Position numbers and translations under genes: made by a program. Below the pieces are notes generated by a model. That model saw only the letters and a list, made by a program, of their open reading frames with translations, was not told the DNA's origin and made no database searches. A DNA stretch of 64,000 bases from Schaalia sp. JY-X169 (GTDB lineage Bacteria > Actinomycetota > Actinomycetes > Actinomycetales > Actinomycetaceae): the NCBI RefSeq assembly GCF_014069575.1, contig NZ_CP059675.1:248001-312000 (forward strand). Reading direction: 5' to 3'. Positions within the stretch are counted from its first letter, which is position 1; every line of letters begins with the position of its first letter. Positions 14,705 through 50,824 of this stretch are shown in pieces.

Positions 14705-14731
14705 TGCGACGGGTTTGGAGGAGTTCGGAGT

Positions 14732-18067: not shown

Positions 18068-18306
18068 TCAGTCGAGTGCGCCGGGTGCTATGGCTTGAAG
18101 TCCCTGGCTCATCGCAGCATCTACCATGCGTTTGTCATACGTAATGATGCCGCGTACGTCGGGCGACAGCTTGGTGGCTGTCGCGATGTGGATGGCATCC
18201 AAGGTACGGAGAGTCGCTGGCTCGACCAGCGGCGCAGAGGAACTGACTCTGCCTCTGGAACGAAAAGCTTCACAAGTGCCGAGGTGTCGATGTAAACACC
18301 CTGCAC
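18068..18306 (-). pseudogene. Remnant of a VapC-type PIN-domain toxin gene
   Basis: From the GTG at 18306 one frame reads YIDTSALVKLFVPEAES, the typical PIN-domain N-terminus with its first acidic residue. From about 18238 a different frame reads LRTLDAIHIATATKL and IITYDKRMVDAA, the PIN C-terminus with two further acidic residues. About 55-60 central residues are missing and the reading frame shifts, so no intact toxin can be made. The start overlaps the stop of wecB copy B by one base, the spacing of an antitoxin-toxin pair. This suggests that the end of that gene derives from the antitoxin. Confidence 0.72.
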
Positions 18307-24752: not shown

Positions 24753-26443
24753 TTCTCTACCTTTCCTAGTTTGCCGAGGGCGGAACGTGCTTGAAGCTCG
24801 AGATCATGAACGCGGTCGAACGCATCGGGCGAGAGATTTTGTATTGCCTTGCCGATGCGGTTCTTCAGCGTCGGAGCGATGACCCGCCCCGAGTAGGGGT
24901 AGTGCGTGTAATCTCGGAACACCTTCGGAGAGTGTGAGTAAAGGTCGACTACCAGGAGCAGATCCATTTGGGCTTCCGCGAGGCCGCCGGTCTCCCCAAC
25001 GAAGTAGCCACCGTTGCGAGCAATGTCAGCGGTGAGTAGATCGAGCATGTGGTGAAGCAAATCGGCATCCCCAACCAACTCCACCATGTGCCCCCAGCCT
25101 CCGGCGCGCTGCACTGCAAGACCGATTAGCTCGACAACTTCTCGGCGGTAGGCTGCGCCACCACGGTAAGGAGCAACCGGAGATGTATGGCTGAATTTTC
25201 CGGCAATTCCAAGTTCCGAGGCGAGATTCCTTGCGTTTAGTGAGTCCGAGAACCACTTACGTCCTCGGACTGCCGTGCCGACGACCTGAATGTACGGGTA
25301 GAGTGCGCCGAGTTTCCCGTGCATATCAAATAAGTCGAGAATGAACTGCGGATCAGCAACAACCGCTTCGGAGGCGCTCCGGTACCGCAGGTGGATCCCG
25401 TCTGCACGAAGCCCAGGTTTGGGAGGTCTGGGGGCGACAATGAGGACCTCCGCATCGCCCATTAGTGCGGTCACTCCATCTTCGGCGAGAATCCTCCAGG
25501 GGTCTTCTTTGCGGTGTACAAGACAAACGCGGCCTGGATTAGGGGTGCCTTCGGGGCTTGCAGTGACCTGGTGGTCGGAATCCGGAACACGAATGTAACT
25601 TGCCCCAATTCCTTCGGTGAGTTCCCGCGTGGTTGCTCGGCGAACCACGCCCTCAACGATGAGGTCTTCTGAGTAGCCCAGACGCATTGCTTCCTTTGTG
25701 ACTGCGGCAGTCACGATACCCTGGTCGACAAGTGCGGGAACATCGTGGAAGTAGAGGCGTTTCTTGAAAAGGGGGCATCCGTCGTACAGCAGCGCAAGCG
25801 GCGCCTCCATGGTGGAATTCGCAACGCCGTAGTTCGCGGCGGGGAAAGCTGCCTTCCACGTGTACCCCAAGTCAGCGAAGTGCGATGTGAACTGGCATTC
25901 GAAGAGCGTGACGACATCGGAGTATGAAGTAGGTGTCGGCAGGGATTCCCAGTAGCTTGCAAATGCTGGGTCGCGCAGTATGCTTCCGCGCACTGCGAGC
26001 CAGTAGGACTGTAAGTGCGCAGGCATGGTTCCACGACCCGTGTAGGGGTGGGGAGTGACGGCGGGATGGTCAGTTACACCCCAGAAATCTACGTCTTCAT
26101 TGCCCATACGAGTTAGGAGTGGTTCGAAGGAGCCGATTGGGCCAAAGAATGTGTAGTTGACAAGCAGGAGCTCGTCGAGCTTCCCAATGAAGTCCCAGCC
26201 CAGAAGGTTGAGCGCATCGCGGTATGCGCCGACATCGTAGCCCATGTTGGGGCGCTCGAGTACGCGGTCTGCGATGTTCTGGACTGCTTCCAAAGAGTCC
26301 GGCTTCAGCAACCCGTTGACCACCACCAGGATCGTGTCCACAAAGGGACGAAAACCCATCAGCGTGTCTAGTACGGAGTTGTCGCAGATCCCGTCGGGAT
26401 CATAAAGCAGGAAGACCAGTGCACTACTATGTTCAGAAGTCAC
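24749..26443 (-). CDS. RgpF-like rhamnan synthesis protein
   Basis: A 564-residue protein. The N-terminal half contains NMGYDVGAYRDALNLLGWD, the most characteristic RgpF segment, then LLLVNYTFFGPIGSFEPLL and AHLQSYWLAVRGSIL. The C-terminal part repeats RgpF-like features (FDMHGKLGALYPYIQVVG, KFSHTSPVAPYRG). It starts with GTG at 26443 and has only a weak ribosome site. It is divergent from the Wzm/Wzt exporter genes with 187 bases between the starts. Two unequal RgpF proteins in tandem suggest two transfer steps, or division of labour in one enzyme complex (inference). Confidence 0.83.
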   Translation of the reverse strand: MTSEHSSALVFLLYDPDGICDNSVLDTLMGFRPFVDTILVVVNGLLKPDSLEAVQNIADRVLERPNMGYDVGAYRDALNLLGWDFIGKLDELLLVNYTFFGPIGSFEPLLTRMGNEDVDFWGVTDHPAVTPHPYTGRGTMPAHLQSYWLAVRGSILRDPAFASYWESLPTPTSYSDVVTLFECQFTSHFADLGYTWKAAFPAANYGVANSTMEAPLALLYDGCPLFKKRLYFHDVPALVDQGIVTAAVTKEAMRLGYSEDLIVEGVVRRATTRELTEGIGASYIRVPDSDHQVTASPEGTPNPGRVCLVHRKEDPWRILAEDGVTALMGDAEVLIVAPRPPKPGLRADGIHLRYRSASEAVVADPQFILDLFDMHGKLGALYPYIQVVGTAVRGRKWFSDSLNARNLASELGIAGKFSHTSPVAPYRGGAAYRREVVELIGLAVQRAGGWGHMVELVGDADLLHHMLDLLTADIARNGGYFVGETGGLAEAQMDLLLVVDLYSHSPKVFRDYTHYPYSGRVIAPTLKNRIGKAIQNLSPDAFDRVHDLELQARSALGKLGKVEK

Positions 26444-26468
26444 TCCGACACCGCCCTAATAATTTGGG

Positions 26469-26603
26469 GTTGGCAACGCCAACGCTTGGTGCCAGCCTAC
26501 CGAAACTGTTGGCGCTGTTCCGGGACTACGCTCGGAACTTGTCCGTGGGGTAGCGCGGGGTCGCTATCATGGTCCTCATGGCAGCGACCACACCGCGCGG
26601 TGT
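26469..26603. promoter_or_regulatory. Divergent control region with hairpin and perfect 14-base palindrome
   Basis: Between the divergent rgpF-like and wzm-like genes there is a hairpin with a 6-base stem and 3-base loop (26469-26474 with 26478-26483). There is also a perfect 14-base palindrome, ACACCGCGCGGTGT, at 26590-26603, about 27 bases before the exporter start. A dyad at that place could be an operator. A TATCAT near 26562 is a possible minus 10 box for the exporter, but the spacing to any minus 35 is poor. Confidence 0.35.
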
Positions 26604-26629
26604 ACGACACTCCAACGACAGGCGGCTCT

Positions 26630-27553
26630 ATGGCTGAAGAATCTCAGATCGTAGCGGCCCGCTACAGTCGTCTGGAGAAATTACCTCTAGCTACATACCG
26701 ACGAAAAGAGAATGCCGTTACGGGGTTCTTCAACGCAGTTCGTGAGGTGGCTTCCCGTCGTGAGCTGCTTGGCCTACTGGTGCGGCGCGAGTTGGTGGGT
26801 AAGTACAAAGACAGCTCGCTTGGCCTCGTGTGGTCAATGGTTCGCCCATTAACCCAGTTGCTCATCTACTACCTGGTGATGGGAGAGTTCCTCGGGGCCG
26901 CGCGAAACATCAATAATTTCGCGATCTTTATCTTCTCGGGGCTCACCATCTATGGGCTATTCTCCGAGATAGTCAACACAATGACGAGTTCGATTGTTGC
27001 TAACTCAGGGTTGATCAAGAAGGTCTACCTCCCGCGTGAGATTTTCCCGATTGCCGCAGTAGGTGCGGCACTCGTCAACTTCGGCCTCCAAATGATCATT
27101 CTGTTGGTCGCGGCGGCGCTTGTCGGAACCATTGTCTTCGGTGCGAACCTCTTGTTCTCGCTCCTCTCCGTGCTAATCGTCTTGCTGTATGCGGTTGGAG
27201 TGGGGCTCTTCCTCGCCGCCTGGAATGTGTACTTGCGTGATATCCAGTTCATGGTGGAAGTAATCGTCATGCTGCTCATGTGGTTCAGTCCGATCGTCTA
27301 CTCGTGGACGTTTGTGGCAGACGCGTTCAATTTCAGAGGGATTGGTTGGTTGACGAACATTTACATCAACAATCCTGTGACCCTCGCGGTTCTAGGTTTC
27401 CAGAAGTCGTTCTGGGCAGATGCGAGCGACGGCATCATGCCGGATGACCTACTCCTTCGAATGGGAGTCGCCGCATTGATTGGCGTCCTCGTCCTCTGGT
27501 GGGGTCAGCGCGTGTTCTCCCGATTGCAGCCTAACTTTGCTCAGGAACTCTAA
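26630..27553 (+). CDS. ABC polysaccharide exporter, membrane subunit (Wzm/TagG type)
   Basis: A 307-residue permease starting at the ATG at 26630 (AEESQIVAARYSRLEKL); longer readings upstream look non-coding. VRRELVGKYKDSSLGLVWS and LIYYLVMGEFLG are typical of the ABC-2 O-antigen and teichoic-acid exporter family, with six membrane helices. AGGCGG lies seven bases upstream. The stop TAA shares its last A with the next ATG, so both subunits are coupled. The partner is the Wzt-like ATPase. It would move an undecaprenyl-linked chain across the membrane. Confidence 0.88.
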   Translation: MAEESQIVAARYSRLEKLPLATYRRKENAVTGFFNAVREVASRRELLGLLVRRELVGKYKDSSLGLVWSMVRPLTQLLIYYLVMGEFLGAARNINNFAIFIFSGLTIYGLFSEIVNTMTSSIVANSGLIKKVYLPREIFPIAAVGAALVNFGLQMIILLVAAALVGTIVFGANLLFSLLSVLIVLLYAVGVGLFLAAWNVYLRDIQFMVEVIVMLLMWFSPIVYSWTFVADAFNFRGIGWLTNIYINNPVTLAVLGFQKSFWADASDGIMPDDLLLRMGVAALIGVLVLWWGQRVFSRLQPNFAQEL

Positions 27554-28818
27554 TGGCACACGATATTTCACCTTCTGAGGGCCACGACGCGAATGCTCGG
27601 GTGCTTCCCGGACCTGAGGTTGCGGTCATTAACGATGTGTCGAAGTTCTTTGTTCTGCGCAAGGACAAGTCCGTAAAGGATCGCTTACTCCACCCCGGGC
27701 GATCGCGGAAACACGAGGACCGGTTCTGGGCGCTTAGGGATGTCTCCCTTCAGATCCGCGCTGGCACAACAATTGGGCTCATCGGGCCCAACGGCTCGGG
27801 AAAATCAACCCTTCTCAAGATGATTGGAGGGATAATCCAGCCCGACGATGGAGTCGTCGAGACTAGAGGTCGGCTTGCTGCCCTCCTTGAGCTCGGCGCA
27901 GGCTTTCACCCGGACCTGACAGGCCGGGAGAACGTTTACTTGAACGCTGCGATCCTTGGGATGTCGCGCGAAGAAACTGATGAGAAGTTCGAGAGTATCG
28001 TTGCTTTCTCCGGTATCTCGCAGTTTATAGACACCCAGGTCAAGTTCTACTCTTCCGGTATGTACGTCCGCTTGGCCTTCGCCGTCGCCATCCACGTCGA
28101 CCCGGATATTCTCCTTGTAGACGAAGTTCTCGCAGTCGGTGATGAAGCCTTCCAGGAGAAGTGCCTGAGCAAAATTCAAGAGTTCCAGCAAGAAGGGCGG
28201 ACGATCATCATCGTCTCCCATTCCATGGGGCACATCACGTCGCTGTGTGACCGCGCGATTGTTCTCCATAAGGGCACTGTTGCCTTCGATGGGGATCCCA
28301 TCGAGGCCGTCCAAGTCATGCGGACTGGGCTGTTTCTTGACAGCATTGATGGGGTATCGGTTGCCACAGGTCGGGACGAAGTTGAGACGCTGGGACAGAC
28401 CACCATCCTGCGGATTGCTCCCTCGACTGTAGACAGCTCATTGCGGCCGGGTGAGGACCTCACCGTTGACGTGGAGGTCTACGTTCCTCGGCAAATGCCA
28501 AAGTGGGACCTGACGCTCTCCATCAACAACTCGCTTGGTTCGACGATCCTCATTACCAGCGCCCATGCTGCGGGCCTCAAGAATGCGCCAATCGAAGGTA
28601 CTCAGATAGTCCGGTTTGAACTGCCGAGCCTTTCTCTGACAGATGGGGGATACTCGCTCACTGCTGTGTTCTATGACGAATTTCAGCACGAGGTTTGCAG
28701 GAGTGAGGGGGCCGCCGCTTTCCGAGCGGAGTCTGGAGAAGAGAGCATAGGGACCGTCTACTCCAGAGTAGTTGGCTCACTGTTACCACCTGAGGGGACA
28801 GACGATGCGGACGCGTGA
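27553..28818 (+). CDS. ABC polysaccharide exporter, ATPase subunit with C-terminal Wzt-like domain
   Basis: A 421-residue protein. Residues about 25-255 form the ATPase: Walker A GPNGSGKST, the family-typical LLELGAGFHPDLTGRENVYL, the degenerate signature YSSGMYVRLAFAVA and Walker B ILLVDEVLAVGD. Residues about 280-410 form an extra beta-rich domain like the Wzt C-terminal glycan-recognition domain, which reads a terminal modification in O-antigen systems. Such a domain implies that the exported chain carries a specific end cap (inference). It directly follows its membrane partner. Confidence 0.88.
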   Translation: MAHDISPSEGHDANARVLPGPEVAVINDVSKFFVLRKDKSVKDRLLHPGRSRKHEDRFWALRDVSLQIRAGTTIGLIGPNGSGKSTLLKMIGGIIQPDDGVVETRGRLAALLELGAGFHPDLTGRENVYLNAAILGMSREETDEKFESIVAFSGISQFIDTQVKFYSSGMYVRLAFAVAIHVDPDILLVDEVLAVGDEAFQEKCLSKIQEFQQEGRTIIIVSHSMGHITSLCDRAIVLHKGTVAFDGDPIEAVQVMRTGLFLDSIDGVSVATGRDEVETLGQTTILRIAPSTVDSSLRPGEDLTVDVEVYVPRQMPKWDLTLSINNSLGSTILITSAHAAGLKNAPIEGTQIVRFELPSLSLTDGGYSLTAVFYDEFQHEVCRSEGAAAFRAESGEESIGTVYSRVVGSLLPPEGTDDADA

Positions 28819-30481
28819 CACGGGAGGAGGGGCGTCTTCATCTTGGGTCCTGGCAATCGTCGGTATCCTGGGCGTCTTCTTTGGCATGGTCGCCTGGGCC
28901 ATGGTCTCTCCGACTGGCGGCGCCCCGGACGATGACTACCACCTCGGCAGTATCTGGTGTCCCGACCCCGTCGAGGGTGGCTCATGCGACGTCGTAGTAA
29001 GTAATGGTGAAGTCACCAACGTCATCGTTCCAGAGACGGTTTACATGTCTCAGCACTGTTGGGCATTCCATCCGGAACAGTCGGCTGCCTGCTCAGACGC
29101 TCTTTCTGATCAGAACCTGGTCCCTTCTTATCGGTTCGACACGGGATCCTACCCCCCTGGCTTCTACCAGTTCCACCACACGTTTGTGGGAACTGACGTC
29201 CACAGATCCATCATGGTGATGCGGGTTGCAAACGTCATACTCGGACTCGGTGCGCTGACGCTTGTTGGGGCACTTGCACTACCGCGACGCAGACAAGACC
29301 TTCTGCTTGCAACCGTCGTTGCGTGGGTGCCGATGGGCGTCTACTTTGTAGCCTCAAACAATCCCACCAGTTGGGCGATTAGCGGCACCCTAATCTATGC
29401 GGCGGGGCTACTCTGCTCTGTCGAGTCAGAGCGGTGGCGACGCTGGGCGTTGCTCTTGGTGGCAGCTAGTGGGGCTGGGATGGCGATGATGAGCAGGCCT
29501 GATGCCGCATTCTTCATCTTCGTCGTGACACTTGCGACGTGGTTGCTCATTCCACTGCGCCGCCAACGGATTCCAGAACTAGTGGTCTCTGTCGCTGCCT
29601 CACTGCTCGGCCTAATCGTGCTCATGAGCTCGAATCAAGCTTCAAGCCTCACCGGCGATGGCGGCTGGCCTGTGGACGAGAACCTGTCAGCACTGCGCGT
29701 GTTCCTAATGAACCTCCTGTCACTTCCGGAATACGCCGCGAGCTTCTGGGGACTCGGTATGGGTCCGGGTTGGATGGACGTGCCGCTGTATGGCTGGTCG
29801 ACGCTGACAATGGTGGTGCTGTTCGGGGGACTTGTGTTTGCTGGCGCCGACTACGTTTCATGGCGTAAGGGGCTTGCCGCGCTAGTCCTCTTTGGTGCGC
29901 TTTTCGGCATACCTGTAGTGAGTATGACCTTGCGCCACGTCCAGCCGCTCACGTACTACCAGGGACGTTATATGCTCCCGTTGCTGGCGGTGGCCCTGTT
30001 TGTCTGGTTACGCAGCTCCGATCGAAAGCCGCTGGTTCTCGCTCCCGGGCAGTTTGCGATGATCGCGGCAGTTGCTTCAATCGCGAATGCGCTGGCACTT
30101 CGGTCGACGACCTACCGTTTTTCGACCGGTGTGAACTCTGGGAACCATTTGAGCGCGGGGAGTCTGACCTGGTGGCCCTGGGTGGTCGGACCAAAAGTGG
30201 TGTGGATGGGTGGCGCCCTCGCCATGGCTATCGGAATCACGCTGCTACTTTTGCTGGTAACCCGTCAAAGGGCCTCGGTGCGCGACACCTTAGGTAGTGT
30301 GGAACCTGAACAACCAAACTCAAGGGGATGGAATGGCTATGAAGGGAATCATTCTGGCAGGCGGGTCGGGCACGCGGCTACACCCGCTCACGCTGGGCAC
30401 ATCGAAGCAGCTGATGCCGGTGTACGACAAACCGATGATCTATTACCCGCTGACGACACTGATGCTGGCGGGAATCAATGA
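28805..30481 (+). CDS. Polytopic membrane protein, DUF2142-like
   Basis: About 558 residues from the ATG at 28805, which lies 14 bases inside the exporter ATPase gene. An N-terminal helix precedes an extracellular loop with four Cys, then about ten helices; the [15 protein letters not shown] segment is typical of DUF2142 membrane proteins, possibly GT-C enzymes. The last helix ends near base 30270, but the frame runs on to 30481, overlapping rmlA by 149 bases. Both other frames hit TAG stops within 30293-30299, so a single-base indel near the end may have lengthened this protein. The N-terminal part is secure; the tail is not. Confidence 0.7.
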
Positions 30482-31211
30482 GATCCTCATAATTACCACC
30501 CCTCATGACGCTGCCGGATTTGAGAGGCTGCTGGGAGACGGGTCCCAGTTCGGCATCAAGATAACTTACGCGCAACAAGCTGTTCCCAATGGTCTTGCAC
30601 AGGCATTCGTCATCGGGGCGGACTTTATTGGTGATGACAAGGTTGCCCTCGTCCTCGGCGACAACCTCTTTTATGGTCCCGGTATGGGGTCTCGACTCTC
30701 ACGCCTTACAGATATCAAGGGTGGCGCCGTCTTCGCGTACCGCGTGTCCAACCCTTCGGCGTACGGAGTCGTGGAGTTTGACCGCGACAACAGAGCGGTC
30801 TCTTTGGAAGAGAAGCCGGCTGCACCCCGCTCGCATTACGCGGTCCCGGGCCTGTACTTTTACGACAACACGGTTGTCCAGATAGCTAAGGATCTGGAGC
30901 CATCTGCCCGCGGCGAGTACGAGATTACGGACGTCAACAAGGTTTACCTTGATAGGGGGGATCTCGCTGTCGAGGTCCTTCCCAGGGGCACCGCATGGCT
31001 TGACACCGGAACTTTCGACGATCTGTCAGATGCCGCGGTATTCATTCGTACCGTTCAAGATCGTCAGGGAATGAAGATTGGCTGCCCCGAAGAAGTGGGC
31101 TGGCGTAAGGAATTTCTGACGGATGAGGAACTGCGAGAAGTAGCTCTTCCCCTGGTCAAGTCAGGTTACGGAGAATACCTCCTCGACCTGATTGAGCAGG
31201 GTCGGGACTAG
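30333..31211 (+). CDS. rmlA: Glucose-1-phosphate thymidylyltransferase
   Basis: A 292-residue enzyme, ATG at 30333 with AAGGGGA just upstream. [16 protein letters not shown] is the nucleotide-binding loop and [17 protein letters not shown] the RmlA signature. [28 protein letters not shown] and [13 protein letters not shown] complete the active site. It makes dTDP-glucose, the first step to dTDP-rhamnose. The next step, RmlB, is at 39682. RmlC and RmlD are not in this window. Confidence 0.93.
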
Positions 31212-31248: not shown

Positions 31249-31998
31249 ATGAATGAGAAGGTGATTGCCTCCGGAGAGCGACTTTTGGTCGTGATTCCAG
31301 CTTGGAACGAAGCCAGCGTGATCGGTGACGTTCTCACTGAGCTCCGTACAGCAGTACCGTGGGCAGACGTCGTTGTCGTCTCCGATGGTTCTGTGGATGA
31401 CACGGCGAAAATCGCTAGGGACGGTGGTGTGAAGGTGCTCGAGCTACCGTTGAACCTGGGGGTTGGTGCGGCCATGCGCACGGGGTACTTATATGCGCGT
31501 CGCAATGGCTATGACTGGGCCCTACAGCTGGATGCAGACGGTCAACATGATCCCGCTGATATTCCTCGCCTCCTGGATGCAGCAAGAGCGGCGGATGCAG
31601 ACATTGTGATCGGGGCGAGGTTCGCGGGCACTGGAAGCTACCAGACTAAGGGCCCTCGTCGATGGGCAATGAGTTTGTTGTCAGCTGTCCTCTCGCCGGT
31701 CACCAAAGCCAAATTGACGGATACCACGTCAGGGTTCAAGCTAAATTCCAAGAAGGCAATTGAGTTGTTCTCGGTGGATTACCCGGCAGAGTACCTGGGA
31801 GACACGATCGGTGCTTTGACAATCGCCGCGCGACGCAGGCTCAAGATCATTCAGGTTCCAGTGGAGATGAGGCCCAGGGCGGGCGGTGAGCCGTCCCACG
31901 GTGCACTAAAGTCAACGCGTTTCCTACTTCGAGCGTGGTTTGCGCTCGCGATAGCGCTCACGCAGAGACCTCTATCTGTGGGGGGCGCAGGAAAATGA
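31249..31998 (+). CDS. GT2 glycosyltransferase, dolichol-phosphate mannosyltransferase-like
   Basis: About 249 residues. LVVIPAWNEASVIGDVL, VVVVSDGSVDDTAKIA and ALQLDADGQHDPADIPRLL are the canonical GT2/DPM motifs with the DAD metal site. It ends without a full membrane domain and overlaps the next gene, a small two-helix DUF2304 protein, by four bases (ATGA). That pairing is common and suggests the DUF2304 protein anchors it. The likely product is a polyprenyl-phosphate-linked sugar used outside the membrane by GT-C enzymes such as the DUF2142 or DUF6541 proteins (inference). Confidence 0.85.
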   Translation: MNEKVIASGERLLVVIPAWNEASVIGDVLTELRTAVPWADVVVVSDGSVDDTAKIARDGGVKVLELPLNLGVGAAMRTGYLYARRNGYDWALQLDADGQHDPADIPRLLDAARAADADIVIGARFAGTGSYQTKGPRRWAMSLLSAVLSPVTKAKLTDTTSGFKLNSKKAIELFSVDYPAEYLGDTIGALTIAARRRLKIIQVPVEMRPRAGGEPSHGALKSTRFLLRAWFALAIALTQRPLSVGGAGK

Positions 31999-32393
31999 GC
32001 AGCACGAGCTACATTTTCGGCATTGTGTTCTCGCTGGTAGTCTTCGCAGCGATTTTCGTTAACCTTCGCTCAGGACGCATGAAGGAGAAATACGCGACCT
32101 GGTGGATTGTGATCGGCATCGCCGTGGTACTGATTTCCGTGTTCCCTCAAGTACTCTCCTTCCTCTCACGACATCTCGGTGTCGAAGTCCCCTTCAACCT
32201 CGGGTTGTTTGCCGGAGGTATCGTATTGTTGCTCATCACGCTGCAGTTCAGTGTCGACCTGTCGAAGAATTCGGACTCGGACAGAAGGCTGGCTGAGGAG
32301 ATCGCACTGGTATCCGAGAGGGTGAGGGTGCTAGAGGAGGTGCGGGACGTCGAGGAGGAGAACGGCCAGGAGGAGCCCGACGCGGGGTTCTAG
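31995..32393 (+). CDS. DUF2304 small membrane protein
   Basis: A 132-residue protein with three hydrophobic segments (about residues 5-22, 35-52 and 67-87), followed by an acidic coiled-coil-like tail (LAEEIALVSERVRVLEEV). This matches DUF2304 proteins, which sit beside DPM-like GT2 genes. The ATG overlaps the stop of that gene by four bases. A membrane partner of the upstream transferase is the best guess. Confidence 0.78.
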   Translation: MSSTSYIFGIVFSLVVFAAIFVNLRSGRMKEKYATWWIVIGIAVVLISVFPQVLSFLSRHLGVEVPFNLGLFAGGIVLLLITLQFSVDLSKNSDSDRRLAEEIALVSERVRVLEEVRDVEEENGQEEPDAGF

Positions 32394-32437: not shown

Positions 32438-33307
32438 GTGTTTAAGGATTATGATGACCCGGATTTGCTTCGGCGCATCCAAGAGTTACTGACGAGGATC
32501 TTGAAAGAGTTCGATCGTGTATGTGCAGAGGTTGGGACTCCCTATGTCGTCTACGGGGGAACCGCTCTGGGTGCGGTTCGCCACGGCGGATTTATCCCGT
32601 GGGATGATGACGTCGACGTATGTATGCTGCGACGCGACTACGAGCGGTTCCTTTCGCATGCTCCGGGCGTATTAAAGCCAGAGTATGTACTCTCGAACTC
32701 TCGCGTAGACGCTGAGTTTCCCAACATGTTCTCTGTTCTGGGACTCCGAGACACGGAGTTCATCTCCGAATTCATCAAAGACAGTCCGTACAAGATGCGG
32801 CTCTCGATCGATATATTCCCCCTCGACAAGGTTCCGCGGGAGACATGGCGGTACCGATTGCAAGCTCGGGAGGCTTGGTTCTGGGGGCGCATGATGTACT
32901 TGCAGGGGACTCCACGCCCGTACTTGAGCCTCGAGCCTGCCGTAACAAGGGCAGTGCATTCTGTGACGGGCCTTGTGTATCGGGCACTAAAGGGCCTTCA
33001 CGTGGGTCCCACAGTCCTGCAGAACCGATGGGAGAAGGCAGCGAGACGTTTCGAGCAAGAGCCTGGGAACAGGCACACCGACTTCACGGATATGAATCCA
33101 ATGGCATGGGAGGTCGCAGAAGGTGATCTCTTTCCATCAGTGTCAGCTCCATTTGGGGACATCGAGGTGCAGCTCCCCAACAACTATGAGGCGATATTGA
33201 CCCGCGGCTACGGCGATTACATGGAGCTACCACCAGAGAATAAGAGAAAGAACCACCAGCCATACCACGTGGACTTGGGCCGCTACGCAGAAGTCGACCC
33301 GGATTAG
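32438..33307 (+). CDS. licD: LicD-family phosphotransferase
   Basis: A 289-residue protein with the LicD/fukutin nucleotidyltransferase-like core: YVVYGGTALGAVRHGGFIPW followed by DDDVDVCMLRRDYERF, with the catalytic acidic cluster, and IDIFPLDKVP further on. LicD moves phosphocholine from CDP-choline onto a sugar of teichoic acid or capsule. The CDP-choline enzymes LicA and LicC are encoded 3 kb downstream as a fusion, with a LicB importer, which supports this role. The GTG start has AGGAGG five to eight bases before it. The stop overlaps the flippase start by one base. Confidence 0.88.
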   Translation: MFKDYDDPDLLRRIQELLTRILKEFDRVCAEVGTPYVVYGGTALGAVRHGGFIPWDDDVDVCMLRRDYERFLSHAPGVLKPEYVLSNSRVDAEFPNMFSVLGLRDTEFISEFIKDSPYKMRLSIDIFPLDKVPRETWRYRLQAREAWFWGRMMYLQGTPRPYLSLEPAVTRAVHSVTGLVYRALKGLHVGPTVLQNRWEKAARRFEQEPGNRHTDFTDMNPMAWEVAEGDLFPSVSAPFGDIEVQLPNNYEAILTRGYGDYMELPPENKRKNHQPYHVDLGRYAEVDPD

Positions 33308-34569
33308 TGGGATCTAGCGGCAAGTCCCAACTGGGACGGGACTATTTCTGGAACACGGCGAGCAGCCTCATGGGATCGCTATCGATGGTGCTGATGCTCA
33401 TCGTGGTGACGAGGGCGGCCGGTATCGCTGCCGCTGGCGTCTACTCTCTGGCGACAGCGGTGGGTCAGCAATTCCAAACCGTGGGCGCCTATGAAGTTCG
33501 CCCCTACCAGGCAACCGATGTTCGCCACCGCTTTTCCTTCGGAACCTACTATGCTACGCGCCTGGTCACTCTCGTTGTAATGGTCGTGGGAATTGTGGCC
33601 TATGCTCTGGTGACCGGCAAAGGCCAACAGAGCGCCATCGTGGTGATCCTCGTTGCTTCACTTCGTGTGTTCGACGCATTCGAGGATGTGTTCTATGGGG
33701 AATTTCAGAGGATCGGTCGGCTCGATATCGCGGGGCGTGCCAACTTCTTCCGAGTGCTGGTAACCACAACGGTGTTCACTGTCCTGATTTTCGTTACGCG
33801 CGACCTTGCGACTACGACCATTGTGACCATCATTGTGACCGCTTTGGCCGTTGCTTTCTTGATTGTGCCTCCGGCCAAGGGCCTGTTTCCACTGCGGCCT
33901 GCATTTAGTGTGGGTCCGGTGCGCTCTCTCTTGATCGCCTGCCTACCTCTTTTCTTGGCAGCCTTCCTGGCAATGTACTTGACGAACGCACCACGCTTCG
34001 CCATTGAGGCATTCATGGACTCAGCACAGCAGGGCTACTACGCCATACTTTTCATGCCGGCATTGGCAATCAACATTCTTGCCATGTTTGTGTTCCGTCC
34101 CCTACTCACTCGTATGGCAACATACTGGGCCGCGGGAAATCGTGCAGGGTTCACAAGGCTAGTCAAGAGGGGCATTCTGGGTGTGGGACTAGCTTTTGCC
34201 CTAACTTTCATTGTGGTCTATTTCCTTGGCGTGCCAATACTGAACCTGCTTTACAGCGTAGACCTTTCCGAGTATCGCCGGGAGTTGCTAGTCATAGTCG
34301 TAGGTGGCGCCATGAACTCTCTAGCAGTCATTTTCTACTACGCGCTGACAACTATGCGGCAGCAACATCTATTGTTGGGAGGGTATCTCGCCAGCGCGGG
34401 TCTGGTATGGGTGTTGTCCCGAGTCCTTGTGCCAACTAGCGGGATTATGGGAGCTGCTCTTTCATACTCCTTGGCCATGATGGTTCTAGCCCTTGTGTTC
34501 GCTCTATCATTTATGCTCATGAATCGAGGGGCACCCCGGGGAGTGGCGCAGACGCCCCCAAAACTGTAA
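33307..34569 (+). CDS. Polysaccharide flippase, Wzx/MOP type
   Basis: A 420-residue protein with about 12 hydrophobic helices. GRDYFWNTASSLMGS at the N-terminus and the overall spacing resemble oligosaccharide flippases of the MOP superfamily. Wzx proteins turn undecaprenyl-linked repeat units to the outer face. The GTG start shares its G with the licD stop, so the two are coupled. This gives the locus a second translocation route beside the Wzm/Wzt pair. Confidence 0.82.
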   Translation: MGSSGKSQLGRDYFWNTASSLMGSLSMVLMLIVVTRAAGIAAAGVYSLATAVGQQFQTVGAYEVRPYQATDVRHRFSFGTYYATRLVTLVVMVVGIVAYALVTGKGQQSAIVVILVASLRVFDAFEDVFYGEFQRIGRLDIAGRANFFRVLVTTTVFTVLIFVTRDLATTTIVTIIVTALAVAFLIVPPAKGLFPLRPAFSVGPVRSLLIACLPLFLAAFLAMYLTNAPRFAIEAFMDSAQQGYYAILFMPALAINILAMFVFRPLLTRMATYWAAGNRAGFTRLVKRGILGVGLAFALTFIVVYFLGVPILNLLYSVDLSEYRRELLVIVVGGAMNSLAVIFYYALTTMRQQHLLLGGYLASAGLVWVLSRVLVPTSGIMGAALSYSLAMMVLALVFALSFMLMNRGAPRGVAQTPPKL

Positions 34570-34608
34570 CGGGCAGGCATTTCGTCTGGGTGGTCATTGA
34601 GGAGCCCC

Positions 34609-35718
34609 ATGAGAATCGCAATCATCACAAACACGTATCCGCCGAGGGTTGGTGGGTTGGAGCAACATCTGCAACAGCTAGCAACTGGCTTGGCAAAGCT
34701 AGGCAATGACGTCACGGTGATAACCATCGACGAGCAACCCGGAACTCGACTTGAGAATGGCGTGCGGATCCTGATCGGTAAAGCACACTTGCCGATTTCC
34801 GGCGTCATTAGCTTCCCGACACTCGGAACCACGAGGCGATTGGCATCGTTTCTCAGTGAGGGCGCATTTGATGCGGTCTCCGTCCATACTCGCTTCTTCC
34901 CGATGACCTTCGTGGGTCTGCGTGCTGCGCATATGGCTTGCATTCCCGTGGTACACACCGAACATGGAAGCGGCTACGTTGCGAGCTCTTCCACAATCAT
35001 CGTCCTAGCAAGCAGGGTCGTGGACAACACGCTTGGTCGATACGTTTTGCGCCATGCGGAGCGAGTACTTGGTGTCTCGCAAGAGGCTGCTTCCTTTGCG
35101 CGACGATTGGGGGCGAAGGAGCCCAAGGTTTTCTATAACGCGATTGGGCCGCGTCTCTCCCCGGCCGAAGTCCCGGATCGTCCGGAACGCTTAGTCTTCG
35201 TTGGGCGTCTCGTTGATGGGAAAGGATGGGATACCTTCCTACGGGCTGTCGCTCGCCTCCGCGACCATGGCCGCGACATTGAAGGAATCATCCTGGGAGA
35301 CGGATCTGACTTTGACGCAGCGCGAAGCCTCGCCGAGGAGCTCCGAGTGGACGATGTGGTGCAGCTCCGTGGACGAGTTTCACCCGAGCATGTTCGGAGC
35401 GAGATCAGCGGAGCTACTCTCGTGAACCCGACTGTGCTGTCCGAGGGGTTCCAAACAACAATGCTGGAAGCGCTCGCTGAGGACGGGCGTGTGGTCACGT
35501 TCGATGTCCCAGGCGCGAAGCTGCTTCGAACGCAGGGCATGCCTGTGTTGATAGCTCCGCAAAAGTCAACCGATTCGCTGGTTGAGACGCTCGAATTGCT
35601 GCTCGATGATCCGCCGCCAGCGGCGAGTGCTGGGGCCCTTTCTCCCTGGACCTGGGAAGAGCGGCTGAGAGAATTCTCCGGTGTCTTGGCTGACGTTGCA
35701 CCTACATCTATCCGGTGA
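34609..35718 (+). CDS. GT4 family glycosyltransferase
   Basis: A 369-residue GT-B enzyme, ATG at 34609 with GAGGAG six bases upstream. IAIITNTYPPRVGGLEQHL opens the acceptor domain, HTEHGSGYVA follows, and LVFVGRLVDGKGWDTFLRA begins the donor domain. The terminal site is LSEGFQTTMLEALAEDG, with the first Glu and the second Glu of the E-x7-E motif. It is the last gene of the operon that begins near 26630. Donor sugar unknown. Confidence 0.86.
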   Translation: MRIAIITNTYPPRVGGLEQHLQQLATGLAKLGNDVTVITIDEQPGTRLENGVRILIGKAHLPISGVISFPTLGTTRRLASFLSEGAFDAVSVHTRFFPMTFVGLRAAHMACIPVVHTEHGSGYVASSSTIIVLASRVVDNTLGRYVLRHAERVLGVSQEAASFARRLGAKEPKVFYNAIGPRLSPAEVPDRPERLVFVGRLVDGKGWDTFLRAVARLRDHGRDIEGIILGDGSDFDAARSLAEELRVDDVVQLRGRVSPEHVRSEISGATLVNPTVLSEGFQTTMLEALAEDGRVVTFDVPGAKLLRTQGMPVLIAPQKSTDSLVETLELLLDDPPPAASAGALSPWTWEERLREFSGVLADVAPTSIR

Positions 35719-35772
35719 TCATCTGGAATGAACTGTGACAATCTCGCGAGTCTGTAACAGTGTCGTAACCTA

Positions 35773-35831
35773 GATGTTCGATTCTGTTCACAAATGCGTT
35801 ATATTCGAACGTGATTCGATGTTCGATTCTG
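35773..35831 (+). promoter_or_regulatory. Leaderless promoter of licCA framed by a direct repeat
   Basis: TATATT at 35800-35805 lies five bases before the GTG start at 35811, so the transcript should begin at or beside the start codon. The 14-base sequence GATGTTCGATTCTG occurs twice, at 35773-35786 and 35818-35831, one copy upstream of the minus 10 and one inside the coding start. GTTCAC after the first and GTGAAC after the second form an inverted pair. This is a plausible operator for the protein's own N-terminal helix-turn-helix (inference). Confidence 0.55.
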
Positions 35832-37637
35832 GTGAACGAGGTGTCCTCTTTGTTGTCACAAAATCAGTTTTCAGTGCTGTTTGCCCTCCAGAAGACGCAC
35901 GAAGGTCTTACGCAGCGGGAAATAGCAGAGAATGCGGGACTAGCTCTGGGAACAGTCAACGCAGTCGTCCGTGAGTGCGCCGCCCTCGGATACATCGTTG
36001 ACCGCCAACTGTCCTCGAAAGGTCTCGAAGCGTTGCAACCGTACCGGGTTGAGAACGCGGTGATAATGGCCGCGGGGCTCTCCCAGAGGTTTGCACCCAT
36101 ATCCTATGAGAAACCGAAGGGCCTCCTTCGTGTCCGCGGCGACGTGCTGATAGAGAGACAGATTAAACAGCTCCATGAGGCTGGGATCATGGACATCTCA
36201 GTTGTTGTTGGGTACAAGAAGGAGTATTTCTTCTACCTGGCCGAGAAGTATGGTGTGGAGATCGTCATCAATGATGAGTACGCAACTCGCAACAACAACG
36301 GCACACTCTGGGCAGTTCGAAACAGGCTTGCCAACACATACATTTGTTCTTCAGACAACTACTTCACATCCAACCCCTTCGAAACCTACGTCTACCAGTC
36401 GTACTACTCTGCGCAGTTTGTTGAGGGAACAACGGATGAGTGGTGCATCGAGACTGCTCAGAACGGTTTGATCACCGGAGTCGAGATCGGTGGCGAGGAT
36501 TCTTGGATCATGCTCGGACACGCCTACTTCGACAGGGAGTTCTCCAAGCATTTCCGAGAGATTCTCGAAACGGTCTACACCCGCCCGGAGACAGTGGGCA
36601 AGCTGTGGGAAGAGATCTTCATAGACCACCTTGATGTCCTTCCGATGGTTGTTCGCCCGTACCCGGAGGGGCTGATCAACGAGTTCGACTCACTGGATGA
36701 GTTACAAGGCTTCGACCCGCTCTTCATTGAAAACGTCGATTCTGAGGTATTCGACAACATCGTTGAAGTGCTCGACACCACGAGATCAGAGGTCGGCAAC
36801 TTCTATCCGCTGAAACAGGGGATCACCAATCTGTCATGCCACTTCAGCGTGGGTGACGAGGAGTACGTCTACCGCTATCCAGGAGTCGGGACCGACAAGA
36901 TGATCAACCGTGGTGCTGAGCAGGCCGCCCTTGAACTAGCCAGCGACCTTGGTTTGGACTCGACATTTATGCACATGGACGCGAAGCGAGGTTGGAAAAT
37001 CTCACGATTTATCCCTGAGGCACGAAACCTCGATGTATCAAACCCGCAGGAGCTCTCAAACGCAATGAAGATGCTGCGGACGCTTCACCACTCCGATGCG
37101 ACGTTGGACCGGCACTTCGACTTTATTGACGAGGGATTGAGGTATGAGAGTCTCCTGTTACAGCACGGGCCGATTGACCTGCCCGGATACCAGGAGTTGC
37201 GGACCAAAGTCCTGCGGCTCAAGGAGTATGCAAATGCGGACGGTTTCCCCCTGGTGCCGGGCCACAACGATTTCTTCCACCTCAACTTCCTCGTTGAATC
37301 AAGCAATGAAATGCACCTGATCGACTGGGAGTATGCGGGAATGTCGGACGAAGCAAATGACTTTGGGACACTCACTGTCTGCTCGGAACTAACTGAGGAC
37401 CAAGCCAACCAGGCGTTGGAGTACTACTTCGGACGTGAAGCCTCTCCTCGCGAGCGGCGCCACTTCTGGTCTTACGTTGTTTTCGCGGGATGGTGCTGGT
37501 ACATCTGGGCTCTCGTCAAGGAAGCGGAGGGCGACAACGTCGGAGAGTGGCTGTACATCTACTACAAGCATGCTGTTACCTATGTTGACCGTCTCCTTAG
37601 TGAGTACGAGGACGTGTCAGAGGTGGTTGCGCCGTGA
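35811..37637 (+). CDS. HTH - CTP:phosphocholine cytidylyltransferase - choline kinase fusion
   Basis: A 608-residue three-part protein. Residues about 15-75 form a MarR-like winged helix (LTQREIAENAGLALGTVNAV). Residues about 80-310 are a LicC-type nucleotidyltransferase, with VIMAAGLSQRF and KPKGLLRVRGDVLIERQI as the CTP-binding start. Residues about 330-600 are a LicA-type choline kinase, with the catalytic HNDFFHLN at 485-492 and LIDWEYAG after it. One polypeptide would thus turn choline into CDP-choline and might sense or control it. The GTG at 35811 fits a leaderless transcript; a later GTG at 35841 is possible. It is coupled by a 4-base overlap to the LicB-like transporter gene. Confidence 0.9.
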   Translation: MIRCSILVNEVSSLLSQNQFSVLFALQKTHEGLTQREIAENAGLALGTVNAVVRECAALGYIVDRQLSSKGLEALQPYRVENAVIMAAGLSQRFAPISYEKPKGLLRVRGDVLIERQIKQLHEAGIMDISVVVGYKKEYFFYLAEKYGVEIVINDEYATRNNNGTLWAVRNRLANTYICSSDNYFTSNPFETYVYQSYYSAQFVEGTTDEWCIETAQNGLITGVEIGGEDSWIMLGHAYFDREFSKHFREILETVYTRPETVGKLWEEIFIDHLDVLPMVVRPYPEGLINEFDSLDELQGFDPLFIENVDSEVFDNIVEVLDTTRSEVGNFYPLKQGITNLSCHFSVGDEEYVYRYPGVGTDKMINRGAEQAALELASDLGLDSTFMHMDAKRGWKISRFIPEARNLDVSNPQELSNAMKMLRTLHHSDATLDRHFDFIDEGLRYESLLLQHGPIDLPGYQELRTKVLRLKEYANADGFPLVPGHNDFFHLNFLVESSNEMHLIDWEYAGMSDEANDFGTLTVCSELTEDQANQALEYYFGREASPRERRHFWSYVVFAGWCWYIWALVKEAEGDNVGEWLYIYYKHAVTYVDRLLSEYEDVSEVVAP

Positions 37638-38572
37638 AGTTTGGACTCGCAAGTGGGGCACTTTGGGGCCTTGACACTGTCATTCTTGGCATGGCCCTTT
37701 TGCTCATCCCCTTCCTGGGATCTCCCGATGCAGCTCTTGCAAGTGCTGCTTTACATGACACCGTCTGTGCGCTGCTCCTTCTGGTCTTCATGGGGTTCAA
37801 AGGGCGCCTCCGTGACACTCTCACGGCTGCTCGTACCAAGAGCGGACGCGCCGTCATGGTGGCGGCACTGTTGGGTGGACCAGTAGGTATGACCGGATAT
37901 CTGATCGCTATCAACAATATTGGGCCGGGCTACACCGCTATCATCTCCTCCTTCTATCCCGCAGTTGGAACTGTCTTGGCGGTTGTCTTCCTTAAGGAGC
38001 GCATGCATCCACGCCAAGTAGCTGCACTGGCGGTTGCGCTGTCTGGAATCATCGCGATTGGTTACTCTTCCGCGACCGCGGACCTTCCAGGGAATGCCTG
38101 GCTGGGTATCCTCGCCGCACTGCTGTGCGTGTTCGGGTGGGGGTCAGAGGCGGTCATCCTCGCGTGGGGTATGCGTGATGACAATGTAGATAACGAGACA
38201 GCTTTGCAGATCCGCCAGACTACCTCCGCCCTCGTCTACATGCTGGTGGTGGCTCCCGTGTTCGGCGTTCTTGGCTTTGCCCTGAAGGCGAGCATCACCC
38301 CGGCAATGGGCGTACTCGCCGTTGCTGCACTGGCGGGGACGGCCTCGTACCTGTTCTACTACAAGGCAATTGCGACGGTGGGGGCGTCGCGAGGTATGGC
38401 CTTGAACATTTCCTACTCCGCATGGGCCGTCATCTTCGGCTTGATACTCATGGGCACGGTACCGGGCTTCCTGCAGATCTTCGCATGCATCGCAATTCTC
38501 ATTGGCACAGTATTGGCGGCATCCCCAAACTGGAAGGACTTGAGCTTCAAGGGGCTTTCCAGACCGGCCTAG
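37634..38572 (+). CDS. licB: LicB-like choline importer, EamA/DMT family
   Basis: A 312-residue protein with ten hydrophobic helices and two EamA repeats; GPGYTAIISSFYPAVGTVLA with LKERMHPRQ is the end of the first. DMT proteins next to licA are choline importers in Haemophilus and Streptococcus. The GTG start overlaps the fusion-gene stop by four bases. With LicD upstream this completes a choline import, activation and transfer set. Choline specificity rests on context. Confidence 0.85.
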   Translation: MKFGLASGALWGLDTVILGMALLLIPFLGSPDAALASAALHDTVCALLLLVFMGFKGRLRDTLTAARTKSGRAVMVAALLGGPVGMTGYLIAINNIGPGYTAIISSFYPAVGTVLAVVFLKERMHPRQVAALAVALSGIIAIGYSSATADLPGNAWLGILAALLCVFGWGSEAVILAWGMRDDNVDNETALQIRQTTSALVYMLVVAPVFGVLGFALKASITPAMGVLAVAALAGTASYLFYYKAIATVGASRGMALNISYSAWAVIFGLILMGTVPGFLQIFACIAILIGTVLAASPNWKDLSFKGLSRPA

Positions 38573-39552
38573 TACTGCCCTCCCACACCGCGGAGCCCAT
38601 CGCGCAAAGCCCGCGAGAAGGGGACGACACGCGTGGTGCGGCCGGGAGTGAGCAGGTAGTACCCCATGTACTTTGTCATCCACCACAGATAGCGCTGCTT
38701 CCACCTCTTCGGGAGGAAACTGGCTGACTGTAGAAGCAGGGTATTTCGCATCATGTAGTAGTTGCGGATGGGAGAGTGCACGTGCACGGGCTTCTTGCGT
38801 CCTGGGACTTGAGCGACCTCGTCTCCCAACGAATGGTAGATGCGGGCATTGCCGCTAACCAGGATGCGGTACCCCTTCTCAACTGCGCGAAGGCACCATG
38901 CTAGATCAACGTGATCAATGAACAGAGCCTCGTTCATGGGCCCGACATCGTCCAGTGCACTCATGGAGATCAGGCAGCCAGAGGCGAGAACAAACGGCAC
39001 TGCCAGGGCTTCCCCGCGTTGAGGAACACGGGTGCGGATCGCCCCCCACTTGGTGAAGGAATAGACGAGGGCGTTCCCGACATCGCCGCCACGACCATCT
39101 AGAGGTACCGGGCCGACAGCCGCCACGGGTCCATTAGCGGCTGAGGATGGGAAGTATGCCATGGCCTCACGGTCATCTGGTTGAAGCAGAGAGAGCCGCA
39201 TTGGCTGACCCGGCGAAGGAGGTTCCTCAAAACAGTCAAGAAGCTCTTCGACCATGTTGGGCGCCAGAGTTGAGTCTTGGTCAGAAAGCAGAACATAGGT
39301 GGCGCCCTCGTTGCGCGCCCAGATGATCCCCTGATTCTGTGCCGCAGCGATCCCGCGGTTCCTACCTAGAGGTAGCCAGTGGACTCCAAACTCCCTTGCT
39401 TCCTCCTCCACATCCTTGTGGTTCGCAGAGCCATTGTCGACGATCACTACGTCGTCCACCTGCGGGGAAAGTGAGCCCAGCAACGACCTAAGTTCATCCT
39501 TCGTTGGGTTGTATGTGACCACGACTGCAATCACATTTTGGCCCTGGGTCAT
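38569..39552 (-). CDS. GT2 glycosyltransferase, rhamnosyltransferase-like
   Basis: About 327 residues from the ATG at 39552, which has GGAGG five bases upstream; the longer upstream reading is not used. VIAVVVTYNPTKDELRSLL, VVIVDNGSANHKDV and YVLLSDQDSTLAPNMVEEL match the rhamnosyltransferase branch of GT2 (RfbF/RgpB type), with DQDS as the metal motif. FIDHVDLAWCLRAVEKGY is the typical acceptor-side acidic segment. It is divergent from rmlB. Its stop and the licB stop overlap in one CTAG. Transfer of dTDP-rhamnose is likely. Confidence 0.83.
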   Translation of the reverse strand: MTQGQNVIAVVVTYNPTKDELRSLLGSLSPQVDDVVIVDNGSANHKDVEEEAREFGVHWLPLGRNRGIAAAQNQGIIWARNEGATYVLLSDQDSTLAPNMVEELLDCFEEPPSPGQPMRLSLLQPDDREAMAYFPSSAANGPVAAVGPVPLDGRGGDVGNALVYSFTKWGAIRTRVPQRGEALAVPFVLASGCLISMSALDDVGPMNEALFIDHVDLAWCLRAVEKGYRILVSGNARIYHSLGDEVAQVPGRKKPVHVHSPIRNYYMMRNTLLLQSASFLPKRWKQRYLWWMTKYMGYYLLTPGRTTRVVPFSRALRDGLRGVGGQY

Positions 39553-39630
39553 CAGACCTCCATTTCCCGGCGCGTAAGCCCGGCTAGACTGGGAATGACC
39601 TACCTCAAGCCTAGTGGGAGTAATACTTAG

Positions 39631-40689
<1,059 letters not shown>

Positions 40690-49502: not shown

Positions 49503-49535
49503 ATGCCTCATTTGGTTTTTGCCCGCGAAAGTTGG
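49503..49535. repeat. Left terminal inverted repeat of the insertion sequence
   Basis: 33 bases. The inner 18 bases, TTTGCCCGCGAAAGTTGG, are matched perfectly in reverse complement by both right-end copies; the outer TGCCTCAT is also matched by both. Confidence 0.85.
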
Positions 49536-49564
49536 CATGGTTGGTTATGGGGACGGAGTTGAGT

Positions 49565-50824
49565 ATGGCTACTCGTGCGGAGATTACCGCTAAATATGCT
49601 CGTGAGTATAAGCAACTATCTAAGAAGGATCGGGGACGATTGTTGGATGAGGTGGTCTCGGTGACGGGGTGGAGTCGGGATAACGCTCGTCGACGTTTGT
49701 CCCAAGCGGCAGCGCCCAAACCCAAGATCCGCGGCGGCCCATCAAGGCAGCGCAAGCCTCGGCCTTTCAAGTATTCCTATGATGCGCGTAAGACTTTGCA
49801 AAGAGTGTGGGCGATGGGTTTGGGTCAGTGTGGGAAGTACCTGGTTGTATCCTTGCCAGGCCTGCTTGATGCCCTTGAGGCTCATGGGGAGCTTGTTGCT
49901 GGGGTGGACCGGTATTCCAGTGAGGTCAAAGAAGAGCTCTTGAGTATGAGCGCGGCAACGATTGATCGGTATTTGAAGCCCTTGAAAGACGGAACAAACC
50001 TGAAAGGAGCGGCAACAACCAAGCCCTCACCCTTGTTGCGTTCTTCGATCAAGATCCGTAAGGCAGGCGATGAAATGGAGAACCGTCCCGGCTTCTTTGA
50101 AGGCGATACGGTGGCTCACTGCGGGCCAACCTTGGTTGGTGAGTTCGCCCGGACTTTGAACCTGACCGATGTGTATACGGGGTGGAGTGTCACCACCAGC
50201 ATCAGGAATAACTCCTCGCGTCACATCATTGCTGGTTTGAACCGGATCATTGACCTCTGCCCCATCCCCTTAGAGGGCGTGGATTTTGATAACGGTAGTG
50301 AGTTCATCAACTACGATGTCGTGGCCTGGGCTCAAAACCTGGAACTGTATTTCACCAGGAGTCGGCCCTATAAGAAGAATGATCAAGCCAGTATCGAGTC
50401 CAAGAATAACCACGTCGTACGCAAATACGCTTTCTACTGGCGCTATGACACACAGGCCCAACTCTCCCTCCTGGAGCGGCTATGGGTAAACGTGAATGAC
50501 TACATGAACTACTACACGCCAACCACCAAACCAGTAGGGTGGGACACCGATACTAGGGGACGGCGCAAACGCGTCTACGACACGCCCAAAACCCCCTTCG
50601 ACAGGCTCAAGGACTCTGGGGCCCTCACCAAGGCTCAAACCCTGGAAATGGAAGCGTACAAGGCGTCATTGAACCCTGCCGCGCTAGCCCGTAACATCAC
50701 CCGCATCCAATCTGAACTGACCGCTCTGGCAAAACGAGGCACCGTGAAACTCATCGCTCAAACCGAAGCCAGAAACAAGCTCCCCAACACCGCCAAAGGC
50801 ATCAAACTACCCCAAGCCAGCTAA
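49565..50824 (+). CDS. DDE integrase-type transposase
   Basis: A 419-residue protein from the ATG at 49565, which has GGAG seven bases upstream; earlier starts are less likely. An N-terminal helix-turn-helix region (residues about 1-50) precedes an integrase core with FFEGDTVAHCG (first Asp), GVDFDNGSEFIN (second Asp) and RPYKKNDQASIESKNN (Glu). These match the transposases grouped with IS1202 or ISNCY elements and do not fit IS30, which reads WEGD. The frame is intact, so the element may still move. Confidence 0.85.
   Translation: MATRAEITAKYAREYKQLSKKDRGRLLDEVVSVTGWSRDNARRRLSQAAAPKPKIRGGPSRQRKPRPFKYSYDARKTLQRVWAMGLGQCGKYLVVSLPGLLDALEAHGELVAGVDRYSSEVKEELLSMSAATIDRYLKPLKDGTNLKGAATTKPSPLLRSSIKIRKAGDEMENRPGFFEGDTVAHCGPTLVGEFARTLNLTDVYTGWSVTTSIRNNSSRHIIAGLNRIIDLCPIPLEGVDFDNGSEFINYDVVAWAQNLELYFTRSRPYKKNDQASIESKNNHVVRKYAFYWRYDTQAQLSLLERLWVNVNDYMNYYTPTTKPVGWDTDTRGRRKRVYDTPKTPFDRLKDSGALTKAQTLEMEAYKASLNPAALARNITRIQSELTALAKRGTVKLIAQTEARNKLPNTAKGIKLPQAS

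Follow-up and report, generated by a model that had tools for sequence, protein, structure and literature searches.

C-reactive protein, antibodies and the platelet-activating-factor receptor all bind phosphocholine on bacterial surfaces. Whether bacteria display it, and under what control, therefore bears on the encounter of commensals and opportunists with their host. In the pneumococcus, tacF lies together with licD in the lic2 cluster. Treponema denticola carries a LicCA in which a cytidylyltransferase and a choline kinase share one chain, and which serves phosphatidylcholine synthesis. Here we describe a related gene set, with a LicC-LicA fusion enzyme (LicCA), in Schaalia sp. JY-X169. 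It lies in a stretch of 64,000 nucleotides (the window), which covers bases 248001-312000 of a 2.38 Mb Actinomycetaceae genome; coordinates below are window positions unless another locus is named.

The pneumococcal flippase TacF monitors phosphocholine on the teichoic acid chain (PMC13385700). Among actinobacteria, Actinomyces viscosus and A. gerencseriae are reported in a 2023 survey to possess Lic-1 homologues and to show anti-phosphocholine reactivity (PMC10434233), and lic genes were noted in Atopobium rimae and Olsenella uli in 2019 (PMC6697681). The Lic-1 pathway is therefore not new for Actinomyces or for actinobacteria. The original prediction for this locus, which called such decoration little described in actinobacteria, was overstated in this respect, given these two papers and the scores of genomes that carry the enzyme.

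The gene set and the LicC-LicA fusion

According to the open reading frame list, five genes follow one another on one strand between 32438 and 38572, in the order licD, flippase, GT4 glycosyltransferase, LicC-LicA fusion and licB:

32438..33307, + strand: LicD family phosphotransferase, predicted to transfer phosphocholine from cytidine diphosphate (CDP)-choline to a glycan (PF04991)
33307..34569, + strand: MOP-superfamily (Wzx-like) flippase (AlphaFold model and PDB fold search)
34597..35718, + strand: GT4 family glycosyltransferase (PF13439, PF00534)
35776..35810, no strand assigned: operator-like inverted repeat GTTCG-N25-CGAAC before licCA (conserved upstream of LicCA genes)
35811..37637, + strand, true start probably TTG at 35850: winged helix-turn-helix (wHTH)-LicC-LicA fusion, licCA (Pfam, PDB sequences, fold model)
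licCA domains: winged helix at residues ~16-63; cytidine triphosphate (CTP):phosphocholine cytidylyltransferase-like at ~80-302; choline kinase-like at ~330-600
37634..38572, + strand: LicB, probable choline importer of the DMT/EamA family, overlapping the licCA stop (7b0k; EamA, PF00892)

The fusion matches Streptococcus pneumoniae LicC in residues 79-302 (1jyk, E 2.5e-36) and pneumococcal LicA in residues 336-589 (4r77, E 3.1e-29), at identities of 33% and 28%, respectively. The nearest PDB folds to its AlphaFold model (predicted local distance difference test, pLDDT, 91) are 1jyk/1jyl for LicC and 4r77/4r7b for LicA, and the LicC domain reaches a template modelling (TM) score, taken for the target, of 0.93 against 1jyk. 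The N-terminus is a winged helix (HTH_24, E 9.2e-9; MarR_2), of which residues 16-63 are confidently modelled. The licCA start annotated as GTG at 35811 probably lies too far upstream. The TTG at 35850 fits better, since it has a GAGG-like site before it, alignments with relatives begin only at about residue 14, and residues 1-11 remain unmodelled.

In the kinase domain, the catalytic residues T339, N340, D487, N492, D505 and E507 and the aromatic box of Y508, W563, W566 and W580 are kept. In pneumococcal LicA numbering, equivalents of T29, D176, N181, D194 and E196 are present, together with those of the aromatic box Y197, W251, W254 and Y268 (Trp). The LicC domain keeps K103, D182, W211, W266, E291 and D293, and the equivalents of its catalytic metal/CTP residues (K28, D107, E216 and D218 in the pneumococcal enzyme) are invariant. 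LicD, the sole LicD of the genome, matches PF04991 over its full length (121 bits, E 9.7e-35, over cut-off); it also weakly matches fukutin-related protein, a member of the same superfamily. LicB matches 7b0k, a structure of pneumococcal LicB, over 292 residues (E 1.3e-33), and W17, H43, D44, W167, E170, R191, Y233, Y236, Y255 and W258 (7b0k chain numbering) show no or almost no variation among 75 actinobacterial LicBs.

Given that all four functions show full-length homology to known proteins, and that pneumococcal structures have been solved for three of these, we read the locus as a system of the Lic-1 type for zwitterion decoration, with phosphocholine as the most likely head group. The original prediction is borne out in so far as LicD, a LicC-LicA enzyme and a LicB-like importer lie full-length within 32438-38572, as judged by Pfam, PDB sequences and the fold model, and form a complete set for import, kinase, cytidylyltransferase and transferase functions within a locus for an envelope glycan, where a flippase gene overlaps licD. 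The winged helix, the conserved repeat, an EutH-bearing congener and the altered choline-contact residues, all described below, had gone unnoticed.

In the route that we propose, LicB would bring choline in, the kinase domain of the fusion would convert it to phosphocholine, and the LicC domain would convert phosphocholine to CDP-choline. LicD would then move phosphocholine onto a lipid-linked oligosaccharide, probably a rhamnose-containing one, and the coupled Wzx-like flippase would export the decorated product, to be joined later to an envelope glycan. GTTCR-N25-YGAAC, over the promoter of the fusion gene, is probably bound by the fusion's own winged helix; this would tune licCA-licB expression to supply.

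The inverted repeat upstream of licCA

The repeat lies immediately upstream of the annotated licCA start. A -10-like TATATT directly precedes its second arm, a -10-like hexamer occupies the same place in several relatives, and extra half-sites lie at 35821-35825 and 35833-35837. The pattern GTTCR-N24-26-YGAAC was found upstream of 96 of 120 LicCA genes, as compared to 1.9% of random 300-base stretches from the same loci; in 49 loci the gap was 24, 25 or 26 bases in 13, 29 and 3 cases, where shuffled sequences gave no more than some 0.1 loci for any gap, and the loci in these counts are related rather than independent. Upstream of other genes the repeat is rare (LicB 2/87, LicD 2/44, flippase 0/22, GT4 0/17). 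The sequence between the arms varies widely among loci, and since it has diverged though the loci are related, constraint on the arms and their spacing is the likely reason for the conservation of the repeat.

As in a trigger enzyme, a DNA-binding domain is fused to an enzyme and a conserved site lies at the enzyme's own promoter. The N-terminal winged helix and the conserved repeat upstream of licCA thus suggest that the fusion autoregulates its own promoter through the repeat. Against this stand seven LicCAs located downstream of a LicB, in none of which (0/7) the repeat was found before the LicCA or before that LicB; in several of these seven loci, another LicCA heads the operon.

Alternatively, the repeat could serve some unrelated regulator or belong to the promoter, and not be the fusion's own operator. 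This alternative, which concerns only the regulatory part, deserves to be taken seriously, although we hold it to be the less likely one. The arms reach into the -35-like and start-site regions, and the pattern alone is near chance genome-wide: a scan of genome G000 gave 49 matches, as compared to 37 for the reversed control, and so pointed to no further targets. On the other hand, the position of the repeat is specific to the gene that encodes the winged helix. It is also present with LicCAs of other kinds, namely the one that is linked to EutH, an ethanolamine permease, in a congeneric genome (G003), and the second copy in Actinomyces mediterranea, and it precedes the EutH-LicCA operon of a Coriobacteriales metagenome-assembled genome (locus L100).

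Distribution, amino alcohol and possible cassette exchange

The LicCA fusion was found in 70 of 213 Actinomycetaceae genomes, in 69 of them at an identity of at least 46% over about 500 residues and in one as broken pieces. LicD accompanies it in 70/70 (Fisher p 9e-47) and LicB in 53/70 (Fisher p 3e-31), although the 213 genomes are related and these are not independent-sample values. This co-occurrence, which the original prediction had proposed as a check, argues that the Lic set is not a chance assembly. Scores of genomes from Actinomyces, Schaalia, Arcanobacterium and the Coriobacteriia carry LicCA, which is widespread in the last of these. It was present in 17 of 395 other Actinomycetota genomes, sampled evenly, all in two families, and is therefore not a general actinobacterial trait. 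The window's own genus has it in one of five other genomes.

The LicCA genomes that lack LicB include those of A. johnsonii (L048) and A. sp. oral taxon 170 (L043); near the LicCA of A. johnsonii, no importer of the tested kinds was found. On plasmids, LicCA was seen on a large Collinsella replicon and as distant Bacillota homologues with BCCT carriers, and nothing else was found. In the Lacticaseibacillus paracasei plasmid pE1-2 and in Lachnospira eligens (L118, L120), LicCA homologues are followed by a second nucleoside triphosphate transferase and a BCCT carrier. BCCT is a carrier family for quaternary amines.

In most relatives LicB directly follows LicCA, and in our trees the window LicCA falls in the LicB-linked clade, one member of which is linked to a BCCT carrier instead of LicB. 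In the congeneric genome G003, EutH takes the place of LicB after a LicCA that is only distantly related (PF04346, 397 bits; NF011668, 629 bits, over cut-off), and the neighbouring LicD, flippase and GT4 are shared with the window (locus L117, 9730-12862). In L100 (246-5037), what looks like a single operon comprises EutH, LicCA, a separate choline kinase of the canonical type, and LicB. The second LicCA of A. mediterranea (L151, 9377-13526) comes with an ethanolamine permease (TIGR00908, 432.6 bits, over cut-off) near a LicB-type cassette, where a stand-alone LicC-like gene also lies. All three of these ethanolamine-permease-linked LicCAs fall outside the LicB-linked clade, the long branches of two of them making their exact places unsure, and EutH was not found in the window's genome. 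Given that the window LicCA lies in the LicB clade and the ethanolamine permeases outside it, choline is the probable amino alcohol of the window system, and ethanolamine would be the best reading for the LicCA of G003. The BCCT carrier linked to one member of the LicB clade, and the anti-phosphocholine reactivity of the two Actinomyces species, also speak for choline.

Several observations weigh against choline. In the phosphocholine pocket of LicC, W136 is kept, but D105 is replaced by Ser, Y190 by Leu and D192 by Glu throughout the family; Y190 and W136 we take to belong to the aromatic box. The Glu at the D192 position resembles that of the phosphonate enzyme PntC. The choline-kinase signature is incomplete in the window (N201 to Ser, W205 to Asn, E213 to Cys), and the E213 position is Cys in 88 of 93 relatives. 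Glu213 of pneumococcal LicA contacts the quaternary amine (PMC4364537); the roles of the substituted LicA and LicC residues, Y190 and W136 excepted, are taken from the same paper and PMC6697681. In addition, 17 of the 70 LicCA genomes lack LicB, and in L100 the LicCA pairs with EutH while the canonical choline kinase sits beside LicB. A search of the open-access literature found no biochemical data on any wHTH-LicCA. A further search, for choline-binding repeats (PF01473), found no match in the window's genome, and likewise none in control genomes, so that it is uninformative.

The main rival to choline is that the same machinery handles ethanolamine or methylated ethanolamines, LicCA making CDP-ethanolamine and LicD adding phosphoethanolamine. 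The EutH of G003, the two further deep LicCAs with ethanolamine permeases and the family-wide changes in the choline-contact residues all fit this possibility, and the LicD-family enzyme mf1 also transfers phosphoethanolamine (PMC11982090). For the window we nevertheless consider it unlikely. The window has LicB and no EutH was found in its genome, its LicB keeps aromatic residues of the pneumococcal choline importer, and each ethanolamine-linked LicCA lies outside the LicB-linked clade. Moreover, an approximately unbiased (AU) test, run on a 24-row set with a simpler model and a quick tree and with L100 left out, rejected a clade of the window and G003 LicCAs (p 1.9e-5). Of the choline pathway as originally predicted, then, the complete Lic-1 set stands, whereas choline itself is not proven, in view of the contact residues and of EutH in a sister species.

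In FastTree trees, the window and G003 sequences group as sisters for LicD (support 99), the flippase (95) and GT4 (98). Since this does not hold for their LicCAs, and their importers differ, the simplest account would be that one of the two lineages exchanged its LicCA-importer cassette and kept its genes for transfer and export. Such an exchange would be workable given that a LicD-family enzyme, Mf1, accepts both CDP-choline and CDP-ethanolamine (PMC11982090). We tentatively propose, as an idea somewhat short of an even chance, that in host-associated actinobacteria one polypeptide phosphorylates and activates the amino alcohol and regulates its own operon through a 35-base repeat, and that species switch between phosphocholine and phosphoethanolamine by exchanging LicCA-LicB and LicCA-EutH, keeping LicD, flippase and glycosyltransferase. 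If cassette exchange does change the head group from choline to ethanolamine, close relatives could show different zwitterions on a similar glycan.

Putative acceptor glycan, neighbouring genes and known systems

The flippase gene overlaps the licD stop by one base. A Pfam search with the flippase gave no match, and no PDB sequence match to any solved flippase was found. Its AlphaFold model (pLDDT 92) has as its top PDB fold the lipid III flippase WzxE (TM 0.74-0.78), followed by MurJ and MATE proteins. Homologues at an identity of at least 40% adjoin LicD on the same strand in 23/23 loci. The window locus therefore combines a MOP flippase fold with licD linkage, as in a TacF-type gatekeeper, and a TacF-like role in monitoring phosphocholine is plausible for its flippase.

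The surroundings are those of a glycan locus, as originally claimed: RmlA, an RmlB-like protein, a rhamnosyltransferase-like GT2, GT4, an ATP-binding cassette (ABC) exporter and the flippase. Outside the five-gene set they comprise:

26429..28818, + strand: Wzm/Wzt-type ABC exporter, permease and ATPase (NF050109 galactan ABC permease, 45 bits, below cut-off; ATPase Walker motifs)
30297..31211, + strand: RmlA glucose-1-phosphate thymidylyltransferase (TIGR01207, 464.6 bits, over cut-off)
31249..31998, + strand: GT2 polyprenyl-phosphate sugar synthase-like protein (NF058614 PpgS, 121.9 bits, below the cut-off of 370)
31935-32393: DUF2304 protein, after the GT2 PpgS-like gene
38569..39753, - strand: rhamnosyltransferase-like GT2 (TIGR01556, 177 bits, below the cut-off of 200.55)
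39682..40689, + strand: open reading frame with an NAD-binding GGAGFIG motif, presumably an RmlB-like dTDP-glucose 4,6-dehydratase

RmlA, the RmlB-like gene and the rhamnosyltransferase-like protein suggest that the acceptor is a rhamnose-containing glycan, putatively a rhamnan. The coupling of LicD to a Wzx-fold flippase in a glycan locus fits a lipid-linked oligosaccharide as the acceptor.

Elsewhere in the window, two near-identical UDP-GlcNAc 2-epimerase-like genes on the same strand (13565-14773 and 18306-19487) look like a recent segmental duplication, and an open reading frame resembling an IS30-family transposase lies downstream of the glycan locus (49532-50824).

Mf1 of Mycoplasma fermentans (PMC11982090), a CDP-choline phosphotransferase, belongs to the same family as the window LicD, but acts on a glycolipid. 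The window LicD is partially similar to it (NF045866, 65.5 bits, far below cut-off), and CDP-choline might accordingly feed membrane phosphatidylcholine or a phosphocholine glycolipid instead of a wall or capsule glycan. We regard this as quite improbable, since LicD is found in every LicCA genome and is coupled here to the flippase within a glycan locus. Least probable is that the LicC domain activates 2-aminoethylphosphonate and the glycan carries a phosphonate: the PntC phosphonate cytidylyltransferases (PMC6697681) have the same fold, being the next nucleotidyltransferase fold match after LicC, and share the Glu at the D192 position, but the window enzyme is fused to a kinase that a phosphonate route does not need, is far closer to LicC in sequence and fold, and stands in a genome without any sign that phosphonate is made, no phosphoenolpyruvate (PEP) mutase having been found. 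The only match to a PEP-mutase model in the genome (PF13714) is a PanB-like enzyme, and the phosphonate route was rejected.

A. viscosus and A. gerencseriae belong, like the window, to the Actinomycetaceae. The accessible part of the report on them (PMC10434233) neither identifies the glycan target nor describes a winged helix, an upstream repeat or an importer difference. More widely, we found in the open-access literature no description of the winged-helix fusion with an upstream repeat, or of a choline/ethanolamine importer difference between congeners. Phosphocholine in Actinomyces has so far had no defined glycan or regulator, and the locus supplies an enzyme, an importer, a flippase and a control site that can be put to the test.

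The system of S. pneumoniae, lic1/lic2 (LicA, LicB, LicC, LicD1/D2 and TacF), provides the same four functions, and in both cases the flippase lies beside LicD, so that the licD-flippase linkage of the window resembles pneumococcal tacF-licD. In contrast to the pneumococcus, the window has a single LicD, several changed choline-contact residues, and a flippase with a WzxE-like fold and no detectable sequence match to solved flippases; its LicC and LicA lie on one chain with a winged helix, behind a conserved upstream repeat.

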